Shown one piece after another: positions 12,711 to 45,299 of a stretch of 64,000 nt of DNA. Location of the stretch: the NCBI GenBank assembly GCA_030407085.1, contig CM059582.1, forward strand, positions 4,216,001-4,280,000, written 5' to 3'. The DNA is from Trichopria drosophilae. Taxonomy: Eukaryota; Arthropoda; Insecta; Hymenoptera; Diapriidae. Numbering within the stretch: position 1 is the first letter of the stretch; each line of letters begins with the position of its first letter. The notes under the pieces were generated by a model. It was not told the DNA's origin. It saw nothing but the letters and a program-made list of their open reading frames with translations, and did not search any database. The position numbers were made by a program, and so were the translations under genes.

Positions 12711-13287
12711 TCGCTTTTTTTAATTTCCATTTTTTTTTGCACTGACAATGAAGACTCTCGAAAATGATTCGTCGTTTAGTAACAGGTTGTTTTAGATGAC
12801 ACATACGATTACATCGATACATAAGATATCTATGGCAAACTTTGCTCTGAGAAAGGTAGCGTCTAGATCCATAAAGAAATCACCCTTCTTATTACATTCA
12901 AAGTATGACGCATCATCGAAAGATAAAATGTAACGTCAGAGATAATTCGCGAATTGAATTTTTTTCTTACTATCTTTCACGATGATTACAGTCATCCTAT
13001 TATATTTATTGTCGGTATCCTTGGCGATTAGTGTCATCGAAATGAAGGAATACCAGATTACTTATCGGATAGCGCTAACGATGAAAGATAATAATAAAAT
13101 CTATTTTTAAGATTTTGTTGGGAACATTGCATGGATACGACATATTTATAGTGTCGTTAACAATTAGGTCGGGAAAATAGATCAGCCAATTTTTTCAGCG
13201 TTATGAGTCTTATCTTCTATGTACATACTTTTAAGGAGATCATTAAGAATTATTGTTTCACGTATCATTTTGCAAATCCTGTTTCAG

Positions 13288-14762
13288 AAGCCAGTCGAAA
13301 GCGTCCTATTTAGCGTATCGCCGTGAACGCGGTGCTCCAGACAGTGAAGGCAGCTACAAGAGGACGATGTCGCCTACTGCCCGTCTTGATGATTGGCCAC
13401 CAGCGAGAGAAAAAGATGATCCTGTTTTGCTAAAAGTGACTCCACATCATCCCCATCCAATACGAACAGTTAACCATCACCACAATCTACACCAAAACCA
13501 CCAGCTTTCAAAGTCGCATAGTGTCGACACCCTACATCAGAGAATGGAGGAACGATCCAGCAACAATCATACCGCCGATGTCATTAACAAACTCTCCCGT
13601 GATCTCGCCAAAAAGCTGCAATCCAGCGAAAATAGAATTCATAATGAGAATAACAATGTGGATCACTTGGAAGATCGATATCACATCGAAAAACGTGAGA
13701 GACTCTCCCCGCAAAGCGTGGAGGTTTTGAACGATCGCAATCGACAGCTGGAGAGGGAACGCCGGAAATTAGCCGCAAATTGTGAACCACAAACTCGACT
13801 TGAATCCTCCCTGATACCGCCAACAGATGACTGCTGTATAGAAAGGAGTGCTACTATCGAGATGACATCCCAGAATGTTGAAATGCTGAACCGAAAGAAC
13901 ACGAACGGTGTCGATAAAAGGTTGATGTCTCCAACATGTAATGCTTACGGAACGGAGAATACTTGGACAAAGAGCTGCTCCGAGGTAAACTTAATCGATA
14001 CTAGGCCAGTTCTAACCGAAAAACCACCACCGCCAACCACATCACCACCTAGTTCCCCGGATCGGCAAAGTCCCAGTTCCAAAACGAGAGGTGCGATTCC
14101 AAGAAGGAGTGGCAGTTGTTCCAGTTCCGGGTCGTCCAGGTCATCGGATCTCCGAATTTCACCAAGCAACTTGCAAGCCAGAATGTCACCCAAAGTACCA
14201 TCTCCCTTGGACTCCCCGACGAGAAACGGGATTGGATCACCCTCCGAACTATTTCCGGCGAGGAAAGTCTCGAGTCCTACGCAAACGGATAAAACGGGAT
14301 CTTCTTGGGAAAAAACGACGTCACCTGGCTGTAACAGAAAAGATTTTAAACGACGGTCCGCATCGTCTAGGTCCAGGATTAGCAACGTATCATCGGTTTC
14401 GTCAGGCTCAAGCATTTCCACAACCTCCAAAGCTTCATCATTATCCTCACCGAGGATATCTCCCAGTCAAGATGATAAGAGGTCGAGAAATACCTCACCT
14501 TGTGTCTCTCCTCAACCCGGAATTGAAGGGCTAATGTTAATGCAGAGGACGGAAGTCGTATTGAGGGTGAACGCAGCTACGATGGATGCGGCCTCGCAAA
14601 CCGAAGTTTTCGATGATTCTGATGATGAACAGAAAGAAAAGGAATGCAAGGAACCAGTTCCAGAACCGAGGAAGAAACATCCTGAGGAAATCGAGTATGA
14701 GGAACTGAGTAGAGACTTGGCTAGTCAGCTGAGTCCGAATGATAAACTCGTGCCTATATTAG
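13288..14762 (+). CDS. Shroom: Shroom exon a (large disordered exon)
   Basis: The acceptor follows a pyrimidine stretch ending in TTTCAG at 13287. The donor is AG|GTAAGT at 14762/14763. The exon enters with one base left to finish a codon and leaves after one base (G) of the next. It encodes residues 1-491: a His/Asn-rich stretch, a charged stretch near ADVINKLSRDLAKKL, then dense SP and RS motifs, and finally the start of ASD2 (HPEEIEYEELSRDLASQL). The frame is open a little upstream of the acceptor, but only from a TTG, so this is not an initiation site. Long open frames on the opposite strand and in other frames here are shadows of the Ser/Pro codon bias. Confidence 0.92.
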
Positions 14763-17700
14763 GTAAGTTATAATGCTTAATTATTCTGTCATCTTTTGAA
14801 CTGGTTCATAAAGGAAGAGGATATTACCAATTTTTCGACAGTTTTCCTCTACCCGAATGTAAATTGCAGCTGTCACCAAGAAAGATGACAAAGAAATGTT
14901 AATTAAATAAAAAGGCATTCGTAATTTATTTTGCGAAGGTTTGTCAATGTCTAGAAAGAGGGAGAAACTCCGAAGCTTTCGTTACTTATCCTATAAGGCT
15001 AATTGGCTTAGCCATAGGGGCTTTTCTTTGGCTTCGCTGTCGGCCTCATTTATAATATGCGTCTTCGCGTTTATCATGCGTCTACCAGGTATACATTCAG
15101 GATAAACCGCAATCGGATTTGAAAATTGTAGGGATATACATGACAACAGGAAGATGTAGCAAACATTTTTTCAAACATAACTCTATAAAAGCTCAAAATT
15201 AAGATTGAAATATCTTATTATAAACTAATTCGTGCGAAAGTAGACGATGGCATTCGATGTTTATTTTAAAACTGCAAGTTTCGCGACTATTTCTTCCGAA
15301 CATCCGTTTCTTTCTTCGTAATCACCTGTTATGTATACCTCGGTAATTGATACTGAGCTCAGAATTTCGCTGAAGGAGGGTCTCGTACATGTGCTCGTGG
15401 ATGATTGTGCGTCCGCGCGTGCATAATAATACAATCGCAAAGGAACGCATTGCGTACATGCAACTGCGACAAAAGTCAAAAGTCTACGACCTCGACTTGT
15501 TTCCAGCAATGCCTCTGGTTCGCGCAACTAATTTATCGACGAGCGCGTTAGAAGCGTATTGTCTTACAAGTGTAAACTTCCGTCAATTTGTCTGGTTACC
15601 CGAAGCACATTGTTTCGGGAAAATAAAATGCGACGAGCGCGATTTATCATTTTCTAGAATCGGCCTGTGGAATGCCTACAATTTATTGACGAGAACGCGA
15701 AGACAATTATCCGGAAAACACTTTGCGATTTATAGATTAACATCTTGAAGAATTCTTCCTTCGTCGAATCTAGCTACTTTTTTATTTTGTTGTTTGTTTA
15801 AGTAGTATTGATTACAACTGCGATTTTGCTAATTATCCTATCAATTCAATAAATAAAAGATATCGTTTTTGTTTTGCTTCATTTTTATTATAAATTTGTC
15901 AAAATATAAAACGCAAATATTTAATTTTTTTTATTGATCATTTTTCGAAATATATCTCATAGAAAACCACCTCATTATATGTTACTAATTTTATACTTTA
16001 AAGGTCAGTTTTCAAGTTTCAACGCATGAAAACATTTTTCTTTCATAATTTTTTAATATGATGCCAACATATTGTTCAATACGAAATTTGAGGAAGAACT
16101 CAATTGTAATAGAATAAATAGTACAATTGTTTAAGAAGCCATCAATTATTTTAACATCCTTTTAAAATATGTTACTTTTGGAGAACACTATAGACAGGAC
16201 GTTGACAAAATCACAATCGATTTTCATTAACTTTGTCTTTGTTGCTGTTTTTGGAATATCTATTGTTCACAAAATATACCGGTTTTTAAATTTTGATAAA
16301 ATTTAATCAATTAATAGACGGAGTCCGTTATTCCATTAAACGTCATTGTGAATCCCGGATGTCATGTTATAAGAGGGCCGCCCCAGTTTATGCGTCGTTG
16401 CGACTTCCTGGAGGATAAGCCATTTTTACGCACCAAACATCATTGAATAGTGTTGGAAAATTTAGTCAACAAAAGAAATGCGTACTGATATCGGAAAACG
16501 TTGTCTTCTTTATATTATTCTTACAATATATTAATTTGTAAACTAAAAAAATAACTTAGTGTCTAGGAAGATAAATATTTATTTCGCAGTTGTAACAGCT
16601 CAGAAAAAATATATTTAATTGATAGTTGACAGCTGCAATTATACATTCGACCAGATCATTCACAGATCGGGTTTTATTGACGTACAGAAGAAAATATATG
16701 AAAAGGTTAAGTTTTGTATTTAGCGGAACGTTTTTTACCGACGGCATAAACGTGATTAATGGACGGCCGTTTACGATATATCATGTTCAAAGCCTAAACG
16801 TGACTAGTATACTGTCATCGATCATGCATTATTATATCACGTAACCATTATCGTTATTATATGCAATTTTGTTAATAGTTCCAGTACCGGAACACAAAAA
16901 GTCGACGGACTACGTGTGTGGCTTATTCAGGGTAGAAGCGACGCTACAACCGCGACCACGACGTCGAATTTCATTGGAAGATTTGGCGCCAACGGAAAAT
17001 GGTACCGAGGAAGAGGCGAAGTAAGTTTTTCATTGTATCTTTTCAATAAGCTTAGAATCCTTTAAGCCTTATAAATTCATCTTATTCAAGTAATAAAGAT
17101 TTATTAAATAAGTTCAACTTGACTAAATAGCAAGTTGGGATGACTAGTCGAGATTCCATCAGTCTAAGTAAATCGAATTGGGTCTTTTTTTCTGGTGTAG
17201 GGAATGCGTTCACCATTTTAGTCATTCTGAACAATATTTAAGCAGGCCTCTTCACTTTATTTGCACACCACGTAACGAATCTTGAAGACTTCGACGGTCG
17301 AGTACTAGCGATCGTTATTTTTCGAATTTGTGTCTGGATAGGAATTCCGAATTCAGCCTTGGCTTGGCATCTGATTAAACGAAGGATTGCGATATAATAC
17401 CGCGCCCGTCGAGTCCCATAACAATGCGTTATTCTATACCTGAAGAATCGTCGCAGACATCGCGATGTCCTTGCAACCTGAAACATTTTTTATTCGGCAA
17501 CGACAAATGGAAAAGGGCGGCTTGCTCGCGGAATAATGTTTCTGACACGTAGTTGTGAATGCCGGCTTCAAATCAAGATCGATTTCAATCGATTCTTGCA
17601 GTTTACGAGTTAATACGGTATTGCGGCTCGAGATCTGGTACTGGTATTGTTATTTGTAGTCAAGTACTTGAGAGAGGAGTGACAAAGTGTTCAGCTTTAT

Positions 17701-20700: not shown

Positions 20701-23700
20701 ATGTTTTCTATTTAATTCCTGTTTTTAGTTGCACCGATGGACAGGTTCACCATAACGCGACTGAATTAATGATTTACCATGTTTACATGGTATTGTATTA
20801 TTTGATAATTATTTTCTTTTCAAATTTTGATATATTACTTCGATATTAAGTACATCCCGAGTAGAAATTGCAACCGGGGTCTGATCGGAATTAATTCGGG
20901 TTACCCTGGTTGTATTCAGGATCTGGCCGGGCTTGTCACGTTTACCAGATTTCCATATTTGAGATACTGACCGGGCTATGATCGAATTCCGACCAGGTTA
21001 CCCTCGTTGTATTCAGAATTCGAAGGGATCGGACTAGCCCGGCTGGATTCCAGCCAGAACCCGAATCGAATTTTTAATCAGGTTAACCAGACCGTATCCC
21101 GGCTGGGGCCATGTTTCTATTGGGGTCAAATCTTCTTCTCATCAACATTATAAAAATTCTCACTTTTGCAAGTCTGGATTTCGATTCTGGTACCCGGAAT
21201 AAATTTGGCTCACGTGACTTAGTTTGCTAATTTCCACACCCTGCTTACGTTCGGCTACTTTTTTCCGCCTTAAACAAAACGCGGCATCGCGTGCCACGCA
21301 ACGTCTAATTTATCCGTCGATAGTTGGGCGATTACGCACAGGAGAAAGCGCAGGTGAGGCTAGTTGCGCAAGCCACGCTATAAATGATATTGTCAAGTTG
21401 CGTTCCCCCAACCATTGTTGTTGTATGCTAGGTCTACGGCCAGTAATCCTCCAGTAGCTCCAACTCGGCCATTCATACTGCACGCATCTGCATCGATCGA
21501 CAATCATGGAGTCGGCAGGCTTCAAAGAGTACGCTTTTCAATACCAAGGTTTCATTCGTGACTCAAAAATTCTAAACCGTACGTGATTGATCCGCGATTG
21601 CTCGCGCCCGAATCGCGACGACAGGATGTAATCGCTTCAGGCCATATATGGTTGCGTATAATTACACATCGATGGAAGTGAAAATCGGGGATGGATTTCC
21701 GGATCTGCATGTTTCCCTTGCCTTTGATTTTTTCCAATGATAAATTTCGAATTAGCTGGGTAGACACGTGACCTTCTGAGCTCCTGTGTTTCTAACTTCC
21801 TTTCTAGACGTGCGGTAGTTGGGTTCGTGGGTTTTGTAAGGTTAATGATGGTTGACTGAGTATTTTTTTACCTTTATCAATGTTTTATCAACTAAAACGT
21901 CATTTAAGTTTATCTGATTCCTTTCTCCTTTATGATGAGCGAAACGGAAAAAGGTTTCAATTGTCTATACCATATTCATAAAATAGGAAAACGAGATGTC
22001 CACGTACTCATTGTAGTAAAAATATCGACAATATTATTTCCCGTTACGTGGCACATCGTAACTTCGTCGATATAGCGCACTTTGGCTAGAGTTCAACTTC
22101 GTTGGTGATTGATTCACGCCTGTGACTCATTCGCCATTGACGTAAGCCTCGTAGCCCTCCACCTTTTACCGCAGGCAATGGTCGACGACTTCTTTTATTA
22201 CACCGTATATTATTGTCCAGCTAGCGTTCTTCAGTTCGTTGTATTAAAAACCAAATTTACGATCATTACACCTCCCTCATGTGAGCACTGCACGTTGGAA
22301 CGTCGTAAATTACGTAGATCGTTATTGTAAAATCGATTAAAATGGTTCATTGCACAGAAAACGAGCTAGAGCAATGATTCGTTTAATGATCGTCTCGTTT
22401 TTCATAGGGTAAACATTTATTTTGTGAAGAATTGAATTGGAACTTCTTTCCGTCAACATGACTGACCTATATTTTAATATCCAAAATAGTTCTTTTGGTG
22501 ATAACATTGATAAAACGCCGGAAAAGCACTATGTAAATATTTATGTATAATGTCAATAAGTGAGGCTTGTTAAAGCCTGCACGAAATCCGTTAATCCGGG
22601 GATTCCCATAAAACTAGTATAGTGAAAGGTTAGGTCCTCTGAAAACGACTGAACCTGGATTAATGGCCTGATGCACGTGTTCATTCGTAATGTTGCAACT
22701 TTGCTTTCAGGGTCGACTCGATACCGACCACGACGACGGATCCGAGTCCGCTATCGGCAACTTCCGCCTACTTCACGACCTCCGAGGGTAAAGCTCGCTT
22801 TCTCACGAGGTACTCGAGAGATGTTAGCGAAGAAGTCTCCACGGAGGAAACCGCGCCGGTCGTTACTACCAACAGTCTCGATCTCAGGGCGAAAAAGGTA
22901 AACATTTATTTAGACAAGAAATATCTTCGATATACGAGTTATCTTGTTTTATTCTTTCTTGAAATGAAATTTTGAATTTTTATTTGTATTTTGTGTTTTA
23001 GAAGGAACTGATGATCAGGTTGGATAAAAAACTGGCAGTACTCAGGGCAGAGCAGGATGCTGTGAAAGAGGAGACTGAAATAAATGAGGCCTTGGGTGCT
23101 CGCGTGGCTTCCCAGGTTTCCGCCGAGGCACGGTCTGCGGAAGCATCCAAGTACAGGTTGCATGTTGAAGAAGTTGGAAAAATTACCAGCCTTCTTCTTA
23201 GCCTTAGCGGGAGGCTCGCCCGCGCCGAAAATGCGTTGTATGGAATGGCTGCTGATCACGTGGAAAGGGTTAGTATCCATTTTCTATCATTTAAAAATTT
23301 TACTTACAATCTTCTGTGCTTATGGAACATTTAAGAATTAATTTAGAACAATAACGGGGGTATTTATTTCTTCATTATAGTTAGAATTTGTTCTTCTATT
23401 TTTTGGAGATTTTGTATGCTTTTTATATTTCTTCTGAAGGTACAAAAGCTTTTATCGTCGAAATAACCACTTCTTTACTATTCATTTCATAGTTTTTGGA
23501 ATTTCATACCTTAAAGACTGTCGGCTCTTTATTTTGTAGTTATCTTCTTCTTCATGCACTTCACTATCCAACTCCTACATGAGTTCTCCATCTTTCTCTT
23601 CCTAAATAATTTCTCATTGGCACTTTTACATCCTTACTGATCGCTTTTACTTTCGTTTTACTTTTATTTTTTCACTAACGTCTACTAAGTATCAATTTCG

Positions 23701-28716: not shown

Positions 28717-28860
28717 ATTTTTTGATACACTGTTCGCAAAAGTACGCACTTTACCGACAGCTTTTAGGCGTACAGTGCAGAGATCAGTCTGTAAAATCAC
28801 AATTTACGGACTAAAAGCAGTCCGTAAAGTGCCTACTTTACGGACACGTGTATCAAAAAG
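28717..28860. repeat. Foldback repeat rich in TTTACGG words
   Basis: Left arm 28717-28767 and right arm 28812-28860 are imperfect reverse complements around TTTTGATACAC, GCACTTTAC and AGCTTTTA. The motif TTTACGG recurs in the right arm, and the left flank (28.6-28.7 kb) has more such words in both orientations. The overlapping 110-codon minus-strand open frame is an artefact of this repeat. Confidence 0.55.
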
Positions 28861-29561
28861 GGAGATTTCGCCCGTTGAATAAATAACAATAAAATAAATT
28901 TAATACAATGTTTTAGGATATGACTCTAATAGTATGAGAAGGTACTAGGAAGGTTACTGTCACCTTAAAAGTTACTAAGATTACCCGAAAGTTACAGAAT
29001 ATTACGTATAATACGTTAGTAATTATGCTGTATAATTTTTTTTTAGTTATCAGATTGCATTACAATGGATTAATAATTTTAACACTAATATTGGTTGACA
29101 AAGAAGATACGAAAGAAATGAAGATGAATACAAATGCATTAACATCGTCAGAAATATATCCGCATACATGAAAATAATTTAATGTATTCAAATCCAAGAA
29201 TTTATTTTCAAAATCATCGTCTTTTTCATTATAAGACTCAATTTGTGCTCGGTCATAAGAACTATTATTGAAAATATGATACGTCATGGTGAAACAATGT
29301 GTCGTCACGTTACGAAACGTGTTACATTTTCAATAAAAGTCCGTATTACGACAAATGTAATCTTTAATTCTTAAAATTTGTATATAGACGGTCGAAAAAT
29401 TGATTTTACAATTTATTGAATATTATTTTTTTGATCCAGATTTCTCAGAAAAATAAATTCTTCTATTCGACAATTTTGGATAGATACGCGTTAATAGTTT
29501 ACTTTTTTTAGAATTGTAGTCATGATACATCGACTAATTAAAATTTAATATAAACTATTGT

Positions 29562-29747
29562 TATTATATTGGTCAGTTTTAAACAAATTTTTAAGGATAA
29601 TAATACGTAAAAAAGAGTGTAATAAAATAAAATGGATAATAAAAGATTTATTTCGAAATTTTCTTTTATTATCCATTTTATTTTATTACACTCCTTTTTT
29701 GTACCTATTATCCAGAAATTTTTTTTTTAAAACTGACCAATATAATA
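29562..29747. mobile_element. Long near-perfect hairpin MITE
   Basis: The 186 bases fold almost completely. The ends TATTATATTGGTCAGTTTTA and their reverse complement enclose about 85-base arms that include GTGTAATAAAATAAAATGG in both orientations, around a loop of roughly 15 bases. TA dinucleotides flank an ATTGGTCAG inner end, compatible with a Tc1/mariner-type TA target, but the exact boundary is ambiguous because the palindrome runs into the flanks. No coding capacity. Confidence 0.7.
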
Positions 29748-30483
29748 CCAATACTTTATTAGTCATGAATTCAAACGGATTCCTAATTAAAGTTACAAAT
29801 TCGCAATAGCGCATAAGAATGCATTCTCCTCCTGCGTAAATCAGATACGATTTGCATGGATTAAAAATTTCAATCTCCAATGCATATAAATGAGTAGAAT
29901 GTATTGTGGATAAAAATGGATTAGTCCTTCCAAACGTACTAATTCAAAACGTTTCAAAATGAATTAAATTCAATTCTTTTTGTTCACTTCACATGGAGAT
30001 AGAAAACAACTTTTTACAGCGAACTTTAACTCACTCCGCCCAATATCACAAAAGTCAGCGATTTTTATAATTAGATAGATAGAGCCAATTTGAAATTCGC
30101 ACAAACAGTTTCTCCACCAAAACATATCGGATGTAAACAAATATCTGGCGAATAACGATTATCCTCCAGATTTTATAGAGAAACACTTTAAAAAACGTTT
30201 GTCAATTTTATTTAGTAAAAAGAATAGAATAAGTAAATAATGATACAGTAATAAAAAACCAAACAATTAAAGATACATTGAGACAAATGTTTGTTTACAG
30301 TTAATGTAATAGCTTCATAGTAAAGCTAACAAAATTTAGATTTTCATCTTAATGTAAGGTACTTTATCCTGAATTTACCATAATCTTAGATTAATTTAAA
30401 CGTGTTATGTTAATAGTTAATATAAGCATTTTAAATATCAATAATAGAATAAGGAGAATATTTTAATCACACGGTGGTATTTC

Positions 30484-30606
30484 AAATCCGAAAGCGAGTC
30501 TGAAAGTAGTAATATTATTCGATCATTCCGTGTCAGGTAGTAAAGTAAAGTAAAGTAAAAACTACCTGACACGGAATGATCGAACAATATTACTCCTTTC
30601 GGATTT
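30484..30606. repeat. Hairpin element with GTAAA-repeat loop
   Basis: Outer stem AAATCCGAAAG (30484-30494) pairs with CTTTCGGATTT (30596-30606). Inner arms 30511-30541 and 30561-30591 are reverse complements over about 31 bases with one mismatch (around CGATCATTCCGTGTCAGGTA). The loop is a short GTAAA tandem run. The left arm carries a 12-base insertion, CGAGTCTGAAAG, that partly copies the outer stem. Confidence 0.7.
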
Positions 30607-30875: not shown

Positions 30876-31020
30876 ACCTGTGCCTTTCTTCTGTAACTCG
30901 TTATTACGAATAACGTCGACGTTACTGTCGATAACGACAATATCCTGGACCGTGGTTGGTTGGAATTGTCATAACGTCGACGTTATTCGTAATACCGACT
31001 TACAGAATACGGGCACTGCC
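30876..31020. repeat. Foldback repeat with TAACGTCGACGTTA arms
   Basis: CTGTAACTCG near 30891 and CGACTTACAG ending at 31005 begin a stem that continues through TATTACGAATAACGTCGACG on the left and its reverse complement on the right. Each arm itself contains the palindrome TAACGTCGACGTTA. Outside this, TGTGCC and GGCACTG extend the pairing to about 30876 and 31020. The left arm has a roughly 10-base extra piece. No coding capacity. Confidence 0.65.
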
Positions 31021-32357
31021 GTTTTTGACATTACAGTTAGTGCCATAACATTACAGTTAATCTAAGATCCTTGAAATTAGCTTACATTATCTATTAGTAA
31101 ATAATTTCTCTCAGTGTACAATAAAATGGCCGTATATTAAGGGTTTTTATGAAAAAGTAACACCGTCTTTACAACGTCATAATCTTCGATTAGTGCCACA
31201 TACTTGACAACGAAACTTGACTCCTTTGATAGAACAAAACGACGACGTTTGAAAAATACAGTGTAAAAATTGTACAGCCTCTGATGTACGTGAAAAGGTT
31301 GCTAAAAACAAGAATTATGGAATACAAGAGTAACTTCGGCACTTCGACTACAGTTATCTTATCATTTTGATTGGAGATATGTTAAAATCTTAAATAAAGA
31401 TACTTCTTTATATCTTTTTCTTCTTCTCACGAAAAGGACAGTGACGCTGTCGAAACGTCAACTAAGTGAATGGATCAAAACTGCTGTTCTTGTTATATCT
31501 GACACGGATAATCGATCCAGCCACTTCTTTAAATTTCAGAAAAGAAGTTAAATATATTTTGATAATTATGGTTGGGCCTATTTTTAGACATACATATTAT
31601 ATAGTGGTATCTTAGATAGAAAAGGGTAAGTTTTTTCCAAACTATAATATATACTTTTGTTAGTTGTATAGTTAAACTAGTGATAAATCTGTTCATAGTT
31701 TGAATAGAATCTGGATAGTTTTAGCCACACCAGTTTTCACGTGAATCTAGGATCTGTATTTCTCGCCATCATTGCCCACTTATAGAAATGGCTTATCATT
31801 TGGTCATAAGACAAACAGTCGCTACTGTTATTGCATAAAGTCATATGCGTGTCAACTTTCTGCATAAATGCAAATTTGATACTCGTGTCCATATAATGGT
31901 ATTACACACAACTTTTTGATGAATCATTATGCTAGTAAGTTCATCCTCAATTTAAGAACTTCCTGAAATAAAAGGTAACCTCTTTTTCCGAAGTACATTA
32001 AATTATTATACGATTTGTATAATTATTTATTAAATATCATAGTTTCTGTACAGCATTTAAGTGACTACTGGATCACATCGTTACATTTAATAATACATAG
32101 TTCATTTACAGATTATCCATTTCGCGCCAGCATAATTATCTAGTACATCTTTACAGAATCGTTATAGCGCCACTATTATTTTCTACAAGGGAATTCGCCT
32201 ATTGACAGAGACATAATGCAAAGTCCCGGATGCGAATACTTTATGACTTTTTCGGCGTATATATAATTAAGATATATATACTTTACGAATACATACCTAT
32301 GTGAAATTCAGTAAATACTAATTTCACAAATAATAATGTTCCGCAATATTTTATATA

Positions 32358-33104
32358 CAGGGTGAGTCTGATAGAAGTGAACATAGGGAAACCCATGTTA
32401 AGGTTACGCGCCTCGTGATTGGTCGATTCCGGTGGAACGTTGCTTGCTCGCTGATTGGCTGTGTTAGAGCTACAAGAATGTAAACAAAATACTGTCTGTA
32501 TGTATCAAATATCTTGTGTGACATAACGGACATAACCACGTTTTGGGCTTATGTAAAATGTATCAAATCCATGAAATGTGTAACATAAACTCAAATTCAA
32601 GACTCAGTTCGTGAATCTTCTACTTTTGTTACAACCGGATGCAGCCGATAAGTTGAAGGGTTTTCAACAAATCAGTTGGCAAGAGTAAAATGTGCTATTC
32701 ATCAATGATGCAGAGATATTCTACCGTATTCTACTCCAAAAATGCTATCAGATAAGTTTTTCGTTTTAATAAAATCATTTCAATTTACAGCAAAGAATCT
32801 GGTACTTTGTGTCGTGTTATTACAGATACAACCGCTCAGATCATCATCGCTGAGTCTTGAATTTGAGTTTGTGTTACACATTTCATGGATTTCACACATT
32901 TTACATAAGCCCAAAACGTGGCTATATCCGTTATGTCACACAAGATATTTGATACATACAGTACAGACAGTATTTTGTTTACATTCTTGTGGCTCTAACA
33001 CAGCCAATCAGCGAGCAAGCAACGTTCCACCGGAATCGACCAATCACGAGGCGCGTAGTCTTAACATGGGTTTCCCTATGTTCACTTCTATCAGACTCAC
33101 CCTG
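32358..33104. mobile_element. Foldback element with ~250-base terminal inverted repeats
   Basis: Ends are CAGGGTGAGTC and GACTCACCCTG. Left arm 32358-32607 and right arm 32850-33104 are near-identical reverse complements, enclosing a 242-base unique centre. TATATA on both sides (32352-32357 and 33105-33110) could be a target duplication or more palindrome. The same peptide can be read from either arm on opposite strands, which shows that those open frames are repeat artefacts. No transposase is present, so this is a non-autonomous element of unassigned superfamily. Confidence 0.8.
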
Positions 33105-33119
33105 TATATATAGTTTTGT

Positions 33120-33314
33120 GGCCGGGGAACAAAGTTCCGAAAATCAACACACCGAAAGGCCAAAATTTCGATATAGCATGGCTCCAGCGTGATTTTCTTC
33201 ACTTTGTCTTTGAAAATGTGGCAAAAAGAAAGCAAATTAAAATACCTTGGACTCACCCAATATCGAAATTTTAACCTTTCGGGGTTTTGATTTTCGGAAC
33301 TTTGTTCCCCGGCC
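33120..33314. mobile_element. Foldback element with GGCCGGGGAACAAAG ends
   Basis: Left arm 33120-33174 starts GGCCGGGGAACAAAGTTCCG and right arm 33260-33314 is its reverse complement with a few mismatches. The 85-base centre is unpaired. It begins only 16 bases after the CAGGGTG element, suggesting neighbouring insertions at a favoured site. No coding capacity. Confidence 0.75.
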
Positions 33315-41937: not shown

Positions 41938-41976
41938 AGAATTCAAATATTAACTTTTTTGTTAATATGACCTAAT

Positions 41977-42547
41977 ATTTGTCAAAAATCAGATTCTTGG
42001 TATTACGGTTCTTTTACTACATTAAAATAAGATTATAAAGCTTAATTAAATTATTGGGTTGTTGCTGTCAACCACTAAACATGAAATTAGTGTGTTATAA
42101 CCTGTTTGCGTATTATTATCGCACCAATTAATGCGTACATATTCTTTCAATATTTTTAGCATTCCTCCTCTGCTAGAAATATTTAAAATCTTAATTTTTA
42201 AAATAAAAACCATAGACACGTCTAAGACAGGTCCTCTGTAGTCTTACTGATGAGTCCGCATAGGGGAACCGGGACAAAACGTGTATTTTAGCAATAGGCA
42301 TATAGTTCTAGATATTATCGCTAGAGGAATGCAGAATCTGATAGTGGTCGGGTCATTAATTTTTCATACATGCAGTTCCGAAGAAATGAAAAGTTCTGTT
42401 TGCAATAATAATACACAAACAGGTTATGACACACTTTTTTCATATTTAGTGGTTGACATCAACAACCCAATAATTTAATTAAGCTTTATAGTGTTATTTT
42501 AATGTAGTAAAAGAACCGTAATACCAAGAATCTGATTTTTGGCAAAT
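41977..42547 (+). mobile_element. Foldback element carrying a hammerhead ribozyme in its loop
   Basis: Left arm 41977-42123 and right arm 42401-42547 are each 147 bases and nearly perfect reverse complements (shared words include AATCAGATTCTTGGTATTAC, GTTGTTG..GTCAACCAC and CCTGTTTG). Weaker pairing (GCATTCCTC, TAGC and TTTTA words) continues inward toward the hammerhead at 42216-42284, close to the exact centre of the loop. There is no protein-coding capacity and no evident target duplication. It begins 39 bases after the end of the CCCGAGCG element. I do not recognise it as a described family. Confidence 0.75.
42216..42284 (+). ncRNA. Hammerhead ribozyme fold (type III layout, G12 changed to A)
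   Basis: Stem III pairs ACACGT (42216-42221) with ACGTGT (42279-42284), 6 bp. The cleavage base C17 is 42222. Stem I pairs TAAGAC (42223-42228) with GTCTTA (42241-42246), 6 bp, capped by a 12-base loop. The invariant core CTGATGA is 42247-42253. Stem II pairs GTCC (42254-42257) with GGAC (42272-42275). The second core strand should be GAA followed by the stem III A; here it reads AAA+A (42276-42279), so only G12, the catalytic general base, is changed. That change is what CpG decay of GGACGAAAC would give. Cleavage would fall between 42222 and 42223. This copy is expected to be inactive or very weak. Confidence 0.85.
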
Positions 42548-42689
42548 TTTAATTTCAAGCGGTTAAGAAAGTAGAAAACTTGATGACCTAATATAGCTGA
42601 AAATTCAGATATGGGTCCCCTTAGCTCAAAATTGGACAGAAACCCTGTAAAAATAGAATCTCCGTTTTGATGTATGCTATCAGTATTGA

Positions 42690-43826: not shown

Positions 43827-44491
43827 ACACAGGTCTACAAAAAAGAGGATCTTCGATGTTGTTGGGAAGCTGTGGGCCATTTCAGACGTTATTGTATGCG
43901 TAAAATCCAAACTCGAAATCAGAATTGGTCCATCACGTCAGGTTTTTGAGATATTTGAGGTCATGTACTCGAAAAACTCGTTATTTTGCTATGTTTGAGG
44001 TTACGTACAGGACGCAACAATTTTATTTGGCCTTCTGTACTATTTGCATCTTTTAGTACTACCTTTATCCTTCAAATTGAGATTTTATTCAATCACCTAA
44101 GATATTTTCTTACAAAGTTACGGCCATTTTGATATTACGTGATATATTCCATTAACGTTATCAAAAAACAAACAGTCACAATACTGAAACGTGATTTTAG
44201 TTATTAGTATCCATATTTTATATAGTTGTTTATATTTATATAGGTTTCATGACATTGAATTTGACCTTGTGCTTGTTCTCCAAGAGGATTTCAAGGTAAA
44301 TTTGTTGCGCATCCCAAATTAAAGAAAAAGAGTAGTACCACGTGATCCAACGAAAGAAAAAACTCCTAAAAATGTTTTGTCTTCTGTACCTGATCTCAAA
44401 AATAGCAAAAAACGCATTTTTCGAGTAAATAACCTCAAATATCTCAAAATGACCCACAGCTTCCCAAGAACAAAACCATGTTGACCTGTGT
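43827..44491. mobile_element. Foldback element with ACACAGGTC ends
   Basis: Ends ACACAGGTC (43827-43835) and GACCTGTGT (44483-44491). Paired inner segments include TTGGGAAGCTGTGGG / CCCACAGCTTCCCAA and TTTGAGATATTTGAGGT with its reverse complement, reaching to about 44020 on the left and 44374 on the right. The left arm has about 64 extra bases, so arms are unequal. Minus-strand open frame 44457-44236 is a repeat artefact. Confidence 0.7.
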
Positions 44492-45192: not shown

Positions 45193-45299
45193 AAAAAAAA
45201 CCGAGGACTATTGACGTGGAAAGATTCGATTCACCAGGAGTTGAACCCGGGACCTATCGATTGCCGATCGAATTCTCTCCCAACTAAACTATGGCTCTA
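45193..45299 (-). ncRNA. tRNA-derived sequence with Pol III terminator (pseudo-tRNA or SINE head)
   Basis: On the minus strand, an A-box-like TAGTTTAGTTGG and a perfect B box GGTTCAACTCC are at tRNA spacing. The T arm pairs CCGGG with CCTGG, and the anticodon arm contains TCGAT/ATCGA. The acceptor stem (AGAGCCA against TGAATCG) has mismatches, and position 33 is not T if the loop is read as TCGGCAA, so it is not a good functional tRNA. Eight T residues (45200-45193) follow about 26 bases after the tRNA-like part, a Pol III stop. No SINE tail recognised. Confidence 0.55.

Follow-up and report, generated by a model that had tools for sequence, protein, structure and literature searches.

Does the sequence at positions 42216..42284 of the window (the whole 64,000-nucleotide stretch analyzed here, at 4.216-4.280 Mb of contig C1) encode a self-cleaving ribozyme, and by what route did it arrive at this site? 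The original prediction placed here a hammerhead with helices of 6, 4, and 6 bp, the core CTGATGA, a C at the cleavage site, and AA ahead of stem III, with A in place of G12 as the only mismatch to the core. We found each of these features on the forward strand where it had been claimed. Stem III (ACACGT/ACGTGT, 42216-42221/42279-42284) encloses C17 at 42222, stem I (TAAGAC/GTCTTA, 42223-42228/42241-42246), the core CTGATGA (42247-42253), and stem II (GTCC/GGAC, 42254-42257/42272-42275), after which position 12 is A at 42276 and AA at 42277-42278 precedes the stem III A. The three helices stand in hammerhead order with helix III open, which is the type III topology. Cleavage is predicted after C17, between 42222..42223, a site placed by alignment to the Rfam model, and GTC at 42220-42222 conforms to the cleavage-site rule RUH. 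The core rule (CTGANGA plus GAAA, with G12) is broken in the window copy by A12. By both the Rfam family RF00008 and a strict descriptor, positions 42216-42284 are a type III hammerhead motif with A12.

The full-length RF00008 (Hammerhead_3) model matched 42215-42285 at 35.0 bits, with an E value of 1.2e-5 in a 901-base search and of 8.6e-4 when the whole window was searched against all 4,227 Rfam families. Since 35.0 bits falls short of the gathering cut-off of this model, 48.5 bits, a default Rfam run is silent on the motif, and the covariance-model check that had been proposed for the window gives a match under the cut-off. A descriptor built on the constraints of the original prediction gave one match in the window and none in 300 dinucleotide shuffles, in agreement with its view that so close a resemblance is unlikely to arise by chance; a loosened descriptor (4/3/4 bp) gave 11 chance matches over 300 shuffles. 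Neither the Rfam search nor the descriptor scan found a second hammerhead on either strand of the window. The motif resembles RF00008 in its open stem III, CUGANGA ... GAAA core, C17, 6/4/6 stems, and full-length model match, and differs from it in A12 and in its loops, which measure 12 and 14 nt and can pair in Watson-Crick fashion over 8-12 bp. The original prediction had missed this loop-loop pairing, the insertion boundaries, the inverted arms, and the membership of a mobile family.

We found that A at position 12 sets the window copy apart from its relatives. When the window copy was aligned with 28 other family copies, position 12 was G in 27 of these, copies at L149 and L130 among them, and C in one. 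Across the genome, an exact pattern of core, stem II, and G12 gave 1,461 matches (730 and 731 by strand; none for the reversed control) compared with 43 in which position 12 was a different base and all other letters were exact (33 A, 6 C, and 4 T, window copy included), a ratio that applies to copies otherwise perfect in these letters. The consensus thus has G12, which is what the original prediction proposed to look for, and its suggestion that other genomic copies may be intact holds, most of the sisters keeping the stems and core. Of the 29 rows, 26 keep all seven of the core letters scored (42246-42252) and 25 have C at C17; by eye, the last core base is changed in row L140 as well. The attribution of A12 to decay of a methylated CpG was not supported, since observed/expected CpG reaches 1.34 over the window and 0.89 over the element and the region is thus not CpG-depleted, yet 33 of the 43 non-G copies carry A, as a G-to-A change would yield. 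CpG is in excess across the whole window.

G12 is the general base of the hammerhead. In the full-length hammerhead, A12 reacts at approximately 0.0001 per min at pH 7.4, whereas the rate with G12 is estimated at 50 per min (PMC2553840, excerpt), and from this comparison the window copy is predicted to be nearly inert, that is, nearly unable to self-cleave. Natural A12 copies correspond to the slow mutant used for crystal structures.

Loop 1 (AGGUCCUCUGUA, 42229..42240) and loop 2 (GCAUAGGGGAACCG, 42258..42271), both on the forward strand, are complementary to each other. Ten base pairs with one bulge are possible between them in the window copy, and the calculated duplex energy of -13.1 kcal/mol was matched by 92 of 20,000 letter-shuffled loop pairs and by 3 of 20,000 pairs of stretches drawn at random from the window. 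Most type III hammerheads have loops of 6-8 and 4 nt that make non-Watson-Crick contacts, according to the available part of PMC7936874. The MFE fold of a 71-base segment is not the hammerhead fold and is merely 1.4 standard deviations better than shuffles. For the 69-base motif, the hammerhead fold (-13.0 kcal/mol) falls 7.4 kcal/mol short of the MFE fold (-20.4 kcal/mol), because loops 1 and 2 pair into one long hairpin, and the folding model, which is without pseudoknots, cannot score the hammerhead stems and the loop-loop pairing jointly. Under this model, the long hairpin would count against the motif if it is the dominant fold in the cell and for the motif if the loops kiss.

We asked how far the predicted loop pairing is preserved among relatives. 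Across 27 distinct rows of the family to which the window copy belongs (repeating unit 517 bp), 93.0% of cells are paired overall and 93.8% in the loop-loop helix, and two-sided changes occur at four pairs versus 1.6 in shuffles, a level reached by 31 of 500; within the loop-loop helix, two of the 11 pairs are changed on both sides. In a pair-shuffle control on the close copies, 48 of 500 shuffles scored as high for covariation and 71 of 500 had as large a percentage paired. Given this weak control, covariation within the close family is no more than suggestive of pairing. A second family with different loop letters has the same loop pairing. At 11 of the 14 loci from the genome-wide Rfam search, loop pairing was equaled by no more than 48 of 2,000 shuffles, the exceptions being L150 (578 of 2,000) and L158 and L163, which the descriptor did not read. 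The first 30 pattern matches on C1 yielded 36 hammerheads, or 30 after duplicates in overlapping loci were removed. At least 9 of 10 tested stem I and stem III pairs are formed in 22 of these 30, and loop 1-loop 2 pairing was reached by no more than 15 of 300 shuffles in 26 of them (all except L174, L187, L190, and L191), with loop letters that differ by group. Judged by these comparisons, the evidence for the predicted loop pairing is stronger across families than inside the 517-bp-unit family. A long loop-loop helix offers a fresh way to study how hammerheads in nature attain their fast state.

How the motif came to lie at this site is indicated by its surroundings. The hammerhead is carried by a 604-bp insert (41979..42582, forward strand), defined by direct repeats at its ends and by its relatives in the genome, which is one head-to-head copy of the 517-bp-unit family. 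The insert is flanked by an exact 12-bp target-site duplication, ATGACCTAATAT, at 41967..41978 on the left and again (ATGACCTAATAT) at 42583..42594 on the right; an exact repeat of 12 bases or more was found in one of 2,000 random flank pairs and in none of 300 cases of a second control. The left arm (41979..42123, reverse strand) is an inverted partial copy of the unit running from approximately unit position 423 down to 279, and the direct part (42123..42582, forward strand), which bears the hammerhead, runs from the unit start to approximately 459. With outer ends at unit 423 on the left and 459 on the right, a tail of approximately 37 nt (42546..42582, forward strand) is present at the right end only. 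Arms of 151 bp (41973-42123 and 42401-42551) are 93% complementary, and their 11 mismatches comprise three G-U, three A-C, and five transversions, as expected of DNA decay and not of selection on an RNA rod. The insert is predicted to fold as a long rod. No coding capacity was found in the insert, in which the longest stop-free stretch is 74 codons (42254-42475) without a protein homologue, and the 517-bp unit contains no reverse transcriptase.

A search of the 936-Mb assembly with the insert region gave 146 matches (40 scored of 677 candidates), and the structure of the family was read from 20 stretches plus the window. One of these, L130, is mainly tandem, with approximately 3.9 contiguous units. 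A comparison of flanks between the 20 stretches and the window revealed no common internal region; similarity among them is scattered, at approximately 110-214 nt and 70-81% in five pairs of loci. Direct repeats of 10-16 bp with differing sequences lie near the ends of 10 of 22 elements (L131, L132a, L133, L135, L136, L138, L142, L147, L149, and the window copy), that of L147 being AT-rich and those of L131 and L133 lying 10-27 bases off the aligned unit ends; in the other 12 of the 22, any direct repeat is shorter than 10 bp. Ends were measured in the 17 elements with repeats of at least 8 bp. Eleven of these inserts are head-to-head and six are otherwise arranged. In eight of the 11 (L132a, L135, L136, L138, L139, L144, L149, and the window copy), the outer ends fall at unit 420-427 and 459-468, 36-44 nt apart, the exceptions being L133 (466/407), L132b (478/347), and L143 (467, then rearranged). 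L131, L146, and L147 each consist of one direct unit, beginning at 462-473 and running to 456-463. The extent of the arms varies from copy to copy, and so does the length of the direct repeats.

These ends resemble those of a described class of retroelement. According to the excerpt of PMC11167929, a Penelope-like element has an optional tail of 30-40 bp, two adjacent internal RT start sites, and extension of both target strands. The 517-bp-unit family likewise has a one-sided tail, here 36-44 nt, and tandem or partial-tandem (pLTR) units with many head-to-head pairs, and intact Penelope genes are present in the same genome. Head-to-head units, target repeats of 10-16 bp, and a one-sided tail of approximately 40 nt all agree with Penelope-type reverse transcription. 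Given two adjacent start sites and extension on both strands, the inverted arms in the window would be two cDNAs that met head to head. Against this stand the three of 11 head-to-head inserts that lack the two ends, the six of 17 measured inserts of other arrangement, the 12 of 22 elements in which a direct repeat of such length is missing, the offset repeats of L131 and L133, and the type of the ribozyme. Published Penelope hammerheads are type I and the window family is type III; its unit also lacks a reverse transcriptase.

Taken together, with a probability of roughly three in four, we favor the reading that the window holds an A12 hammerhead in a 604-bp copy, likely inserted by Penelope-type reverse transcription and predicted to be nearly inert, and that its G12 sisters would cut themselves. 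Under the mechanism that we propose, transcripts of tandem units would fold, and loops 1 and 2 would pair by 8-12 bp and clamp stems I and II. The RNA would be cut after C17 into unit-length pieces, which are perhaps circularized. A Penelope-type enzyme may then prime cDNA at either of two internal sites approximately 40 nt apart, and extension of both cut target strands would leave head-to-head cDNAs, one tailed and one tailless, within the target duplication. The window copy itself would have lost G12.

Our data indicate that genes of the required type exist in this genome. The GIY-YIG family gave 142 genome matches (150 scored of 1,521 candidates), some in triplets approximately 3.1 kb apart on C1 and C3, and control matches in 12 of 14 genomes. 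L202 (G000:C3:74905700-74909100), a tandem Penelope-like element that looks intact, repeats itself exactly over 299 nt with a period of 3,102 bp and contains an 831-codon stop-free frame in which the domains RVT_1 (E 4.2e-11) and GIY-YIG (E 1e-6) were recognized. Upstream of this frame, on the minus strand at 2670-2790, lies a stretch that we take to be a putative minimal hammerhead (CTGAAGAGGACC...GGTCGAAACGTC), which Rfam did not report at E values up to 1. L202 has no significant sequence in common with the 517-bp unit (best E 0.12) and no type III core, and it therefore represents no more than a candidate class of helper. The presence of Penelope genes raised our confidence in Penelope-type insertion slightly, from 0.72 to 0.75, and lowered by an equally small step the weight given to insertion by a LINE-type enzyme.

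Insertion by a LINE-type enzyme, in which the element is one of the non-LTR retrozymes published from animals, with RNA circles made by the ribozyme and copied by that enzyme and with an incidental tail, is the foremost competing account, although we consider it unlikely. Animal non-LTR retrozymes are short non-coding tandem units with one hammerhead each, which recalls the 517-bp tandem array of L130, the target repeats at 10 of 22 elements, and the non-coding insert with its single ribozyme of one polarity in the window; the lack of shared sequence between L202 and the unit also speaks for it. The published animal retrozymes are, however, type I and 170-400 nt long (PMC11722881, in part), whereas the window family is type III with a unit of 517 bp. 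Moreover, the one-sided tail of approximately 40 nt in eight of 11 head-to-head inserts is a described mark of Penelope, genes of which are in this genome.

A DNA fold-back element or MITE, with the 151-bp arms serving as terminal inverted repeats for a transposase and the hammerhead carried along, is very improbable. The arms are 93% complementary, and inverted repeats and palindromes are frequent elsewhere in the window, yet the right arm stops short of the duplication with the tail of approximately 37 nt between, the length of the direct repeats is variable, and the extent of the arms differs among copies. The single direct units L131, L146, and L147 and the mainly tandem L130 argue against fold-back as the general structure. 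Rated lower still is the copying into DNA of an infectious circular RNA of the rod-like sort, either delta-like or viroid-like, that bore a type III hammerhead such as those known from termites and toads. Delta-like RNAs and termite and fly genomes have type III hammerheads with loop pairing (PMC7936874, in part), and the insert folds as a long rod; the types of the arm mismatches, however, are those of decaying DNA, no opposite-strand ribozyme is present in the window to give the two polarities of a delta-like or viroid-like RNA, no stop-free stretch is longer than 74 codons and that one has no homologue, and the copies are dispersed in the genome (40 scored of 677 candidates), several with target repeats. 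We rejected the insert as a rod-like RNA or a MITE on the mismatch types, the single-unit and tandem sisters, and the tail. A chance look-alike, to which the score under the gathering cut-off and the missing G12 might point, is hardly credible given none in 300 shuffles, 28 related copies of which most have stems and core, and the independent loop pairing, and the intact sisters already refute it.

We also considered type III cores in the genome as a whole. By eye, at least 10 different loop 2 groups occur among the pattern matches listed. The Rfam search of the genome gave 14 matches of 27.7-44.5 bits, none above 48.5 (68 scored of 124,751 candidates), and the same search gave below-cut-off matches in 3 of 14 control genomes. 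Twelve loci searched with Rfam gave 12 hammerhead matches in eight loci, at 33.9-41.5 bits; the other four (L171, L173, L178, and L195) had no Rfam hammerhead at E values up to 0.01. These hammerheads escape detection since their long paired loops are unlike the Rfam model, and as all scored copies lie below the cut-off, routine annotation would miss them, which amounts to an annotation blind spot. Beyond this genome, neither a 23-base pattern from the arm nor a 20-base pattern from the motif occurred in viral contigs, and the latter was also absent from prokaryote contigs; one match to a 17-base pattern in a viral contig was discarded, as the remainder of the motif proved to be missing on reading. 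At least 120 stretches in IMG/VR viral contigs match a hammerhead-type core pattern. Two weak matches to other families were observed at loci of this genome, a type-P1 twister on the minus strand of L130 at 492-559 (39.1 bits, cut-off 67.2, E 3.8e-5 in a 49-kb search) and MIR8562 on the plus strand of the hammerhead-bearing locus L173 at 1100-1270 (43.7 bits, cut-off 211).

Type III hammerheads also occur in this genome inside LTRs with short target duplications. L194 has two repeats of 633-636 bp that are 98.7% identical, begin and end as TGTTCC...GTAACA, and carry a type III hammerhead each; GCGAC flanks the element on both sides, TGGTGCCGAAACCCGGGA follows the first LTR, a G-rich tract precedes the second, and the internal region measures 4.4 kb. 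We had considered this 5-kb spaced pair as a full Penelope element and rejected it, as it is an LTR element whose longest listed stop-free frame is 120 codons. Solo copies of the L194 LTR have perfect 5-bp duplications in four of five full-length cases, and three further matches are partial. L195 is arranged LTR-interior-LTR-interior-LTR with a period of 1,449 bp and 99.8% identity, and AGTT lies on both sides; its LTR has no full-length solo copy, with partial copies only at seven other loci. Open frames were observed to the left and right of L195 (1-4101), which suggests that it lies within a coding or element gene and points to a recent insertion. TGGTGCC/TGGCGCC immediately after the LTR in these relatives is a candidate primer-binding site, the candidate primer-binding sequences of these relatives being TGGCGCCCGACCGTAGGAC and TGGTGCCGAAACCCGGGA. 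The L195 site has 23 genome matches, and ARAGORN called no tRNA in the five of those loci submitted to it. The window copy, by comparison, has no LTR and a 12-bp duplication and so falls outside the plant pattern of LTRs with duplications of 4-6 bp.

L194 and L195, unlike the window copy, resemble the LTR retrozymes of plants in having type III hammerheads in their LTRs, target duplications, and a G-rich tract before the 3' LTR, and the 1,449 bp per unit of L195 is near the 1-1.5 kb of the plant elements (PMC11722881, excerpt). They differ from these in their animal host, long loop pairing, and the 4.4-kb interior of L194; the plant primer is tRNA-Met. Retrozymes are described as LTR elements bearing type III hammerheads in plants and as non-LTR elements bearing type I in animals (PMC11722881, PMC7761336, and PMC7229834, all in part), and the sections of reviews available place type III mainly in plants, phages or prokaryotes, and infectious circular RNAs, and mostly type I non-LTR elements in animals. 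The hammerheads of delta-like RNAs, termites, and flies share with ours their insect hosts, type III topology, and Watson-Crick pairing between loops 1 and 2, and differ in an extra helix I hairpin and a 4-nt loop pairing (GCCR/YGGC), the termite ones being isolated motifs; as far as the excerpt of that paper (PMC7936874) goes, its authors' structure search gave no such hammerheads in hymenopterans. Ant TRIM elements are short LTR elements in Hymenoptera, and the word ribozyme is absent from the accessible text (PMC3532108). Our literature search found no report of type III hammerheads in insect LTRs or in Penelope-type units. Insects are listed in the available part of PMC7761336 among organisms with type III elements, from work in preparation, and part of this finding may therefore already be known to that group.

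A likely hymenopteran genome with type III cores in both LTRs and Penelope-type units bridges the plant and animal retrozymes, and the origin of retrozymes and of type III viroid-like ribozymes becomes testable in insects. We regard it as evenly balanced whether these type III hammerheads represent one new build with kissing loops of 8-12 bp, a module that has crossed between two unrelated element classes, plant-style LTR retrozymes and Penelope-mobilized units, and has stayed hidden below the Rfam cut-off.

Elsewhere in the window, inverted repeats or palindromes of 76-94% complementarity lie at 32341-33121, 29550-29759, 33120-33314, 30499-30603, 30880-31016, 28719-28859, and 43944-44449; by sequence comparison, these seven have no similarity to the hammerhead insert or among themselves. 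A tRNA-like sequence on the minus strand at 45226-45298 scores 32.1 bits, above its Rfam cut-off, is not called by ARAGORN, and is perhaps a tRNA-derived SINE or a pseudogene. On the plus strand, 42 protein relatives were recovered for a 508-codon frame at 13247-14770; the top ones are unnamed and the best named ones hymenopteran (Monomorium, Ampulex, Trichomalopsis, and Microctonus), which makes a hymenopteran host likely. The Shroom domain ASD2 lies at 23002-23331; this exon-like frame and the ASD2 domain likely belong to one Shroom gene.
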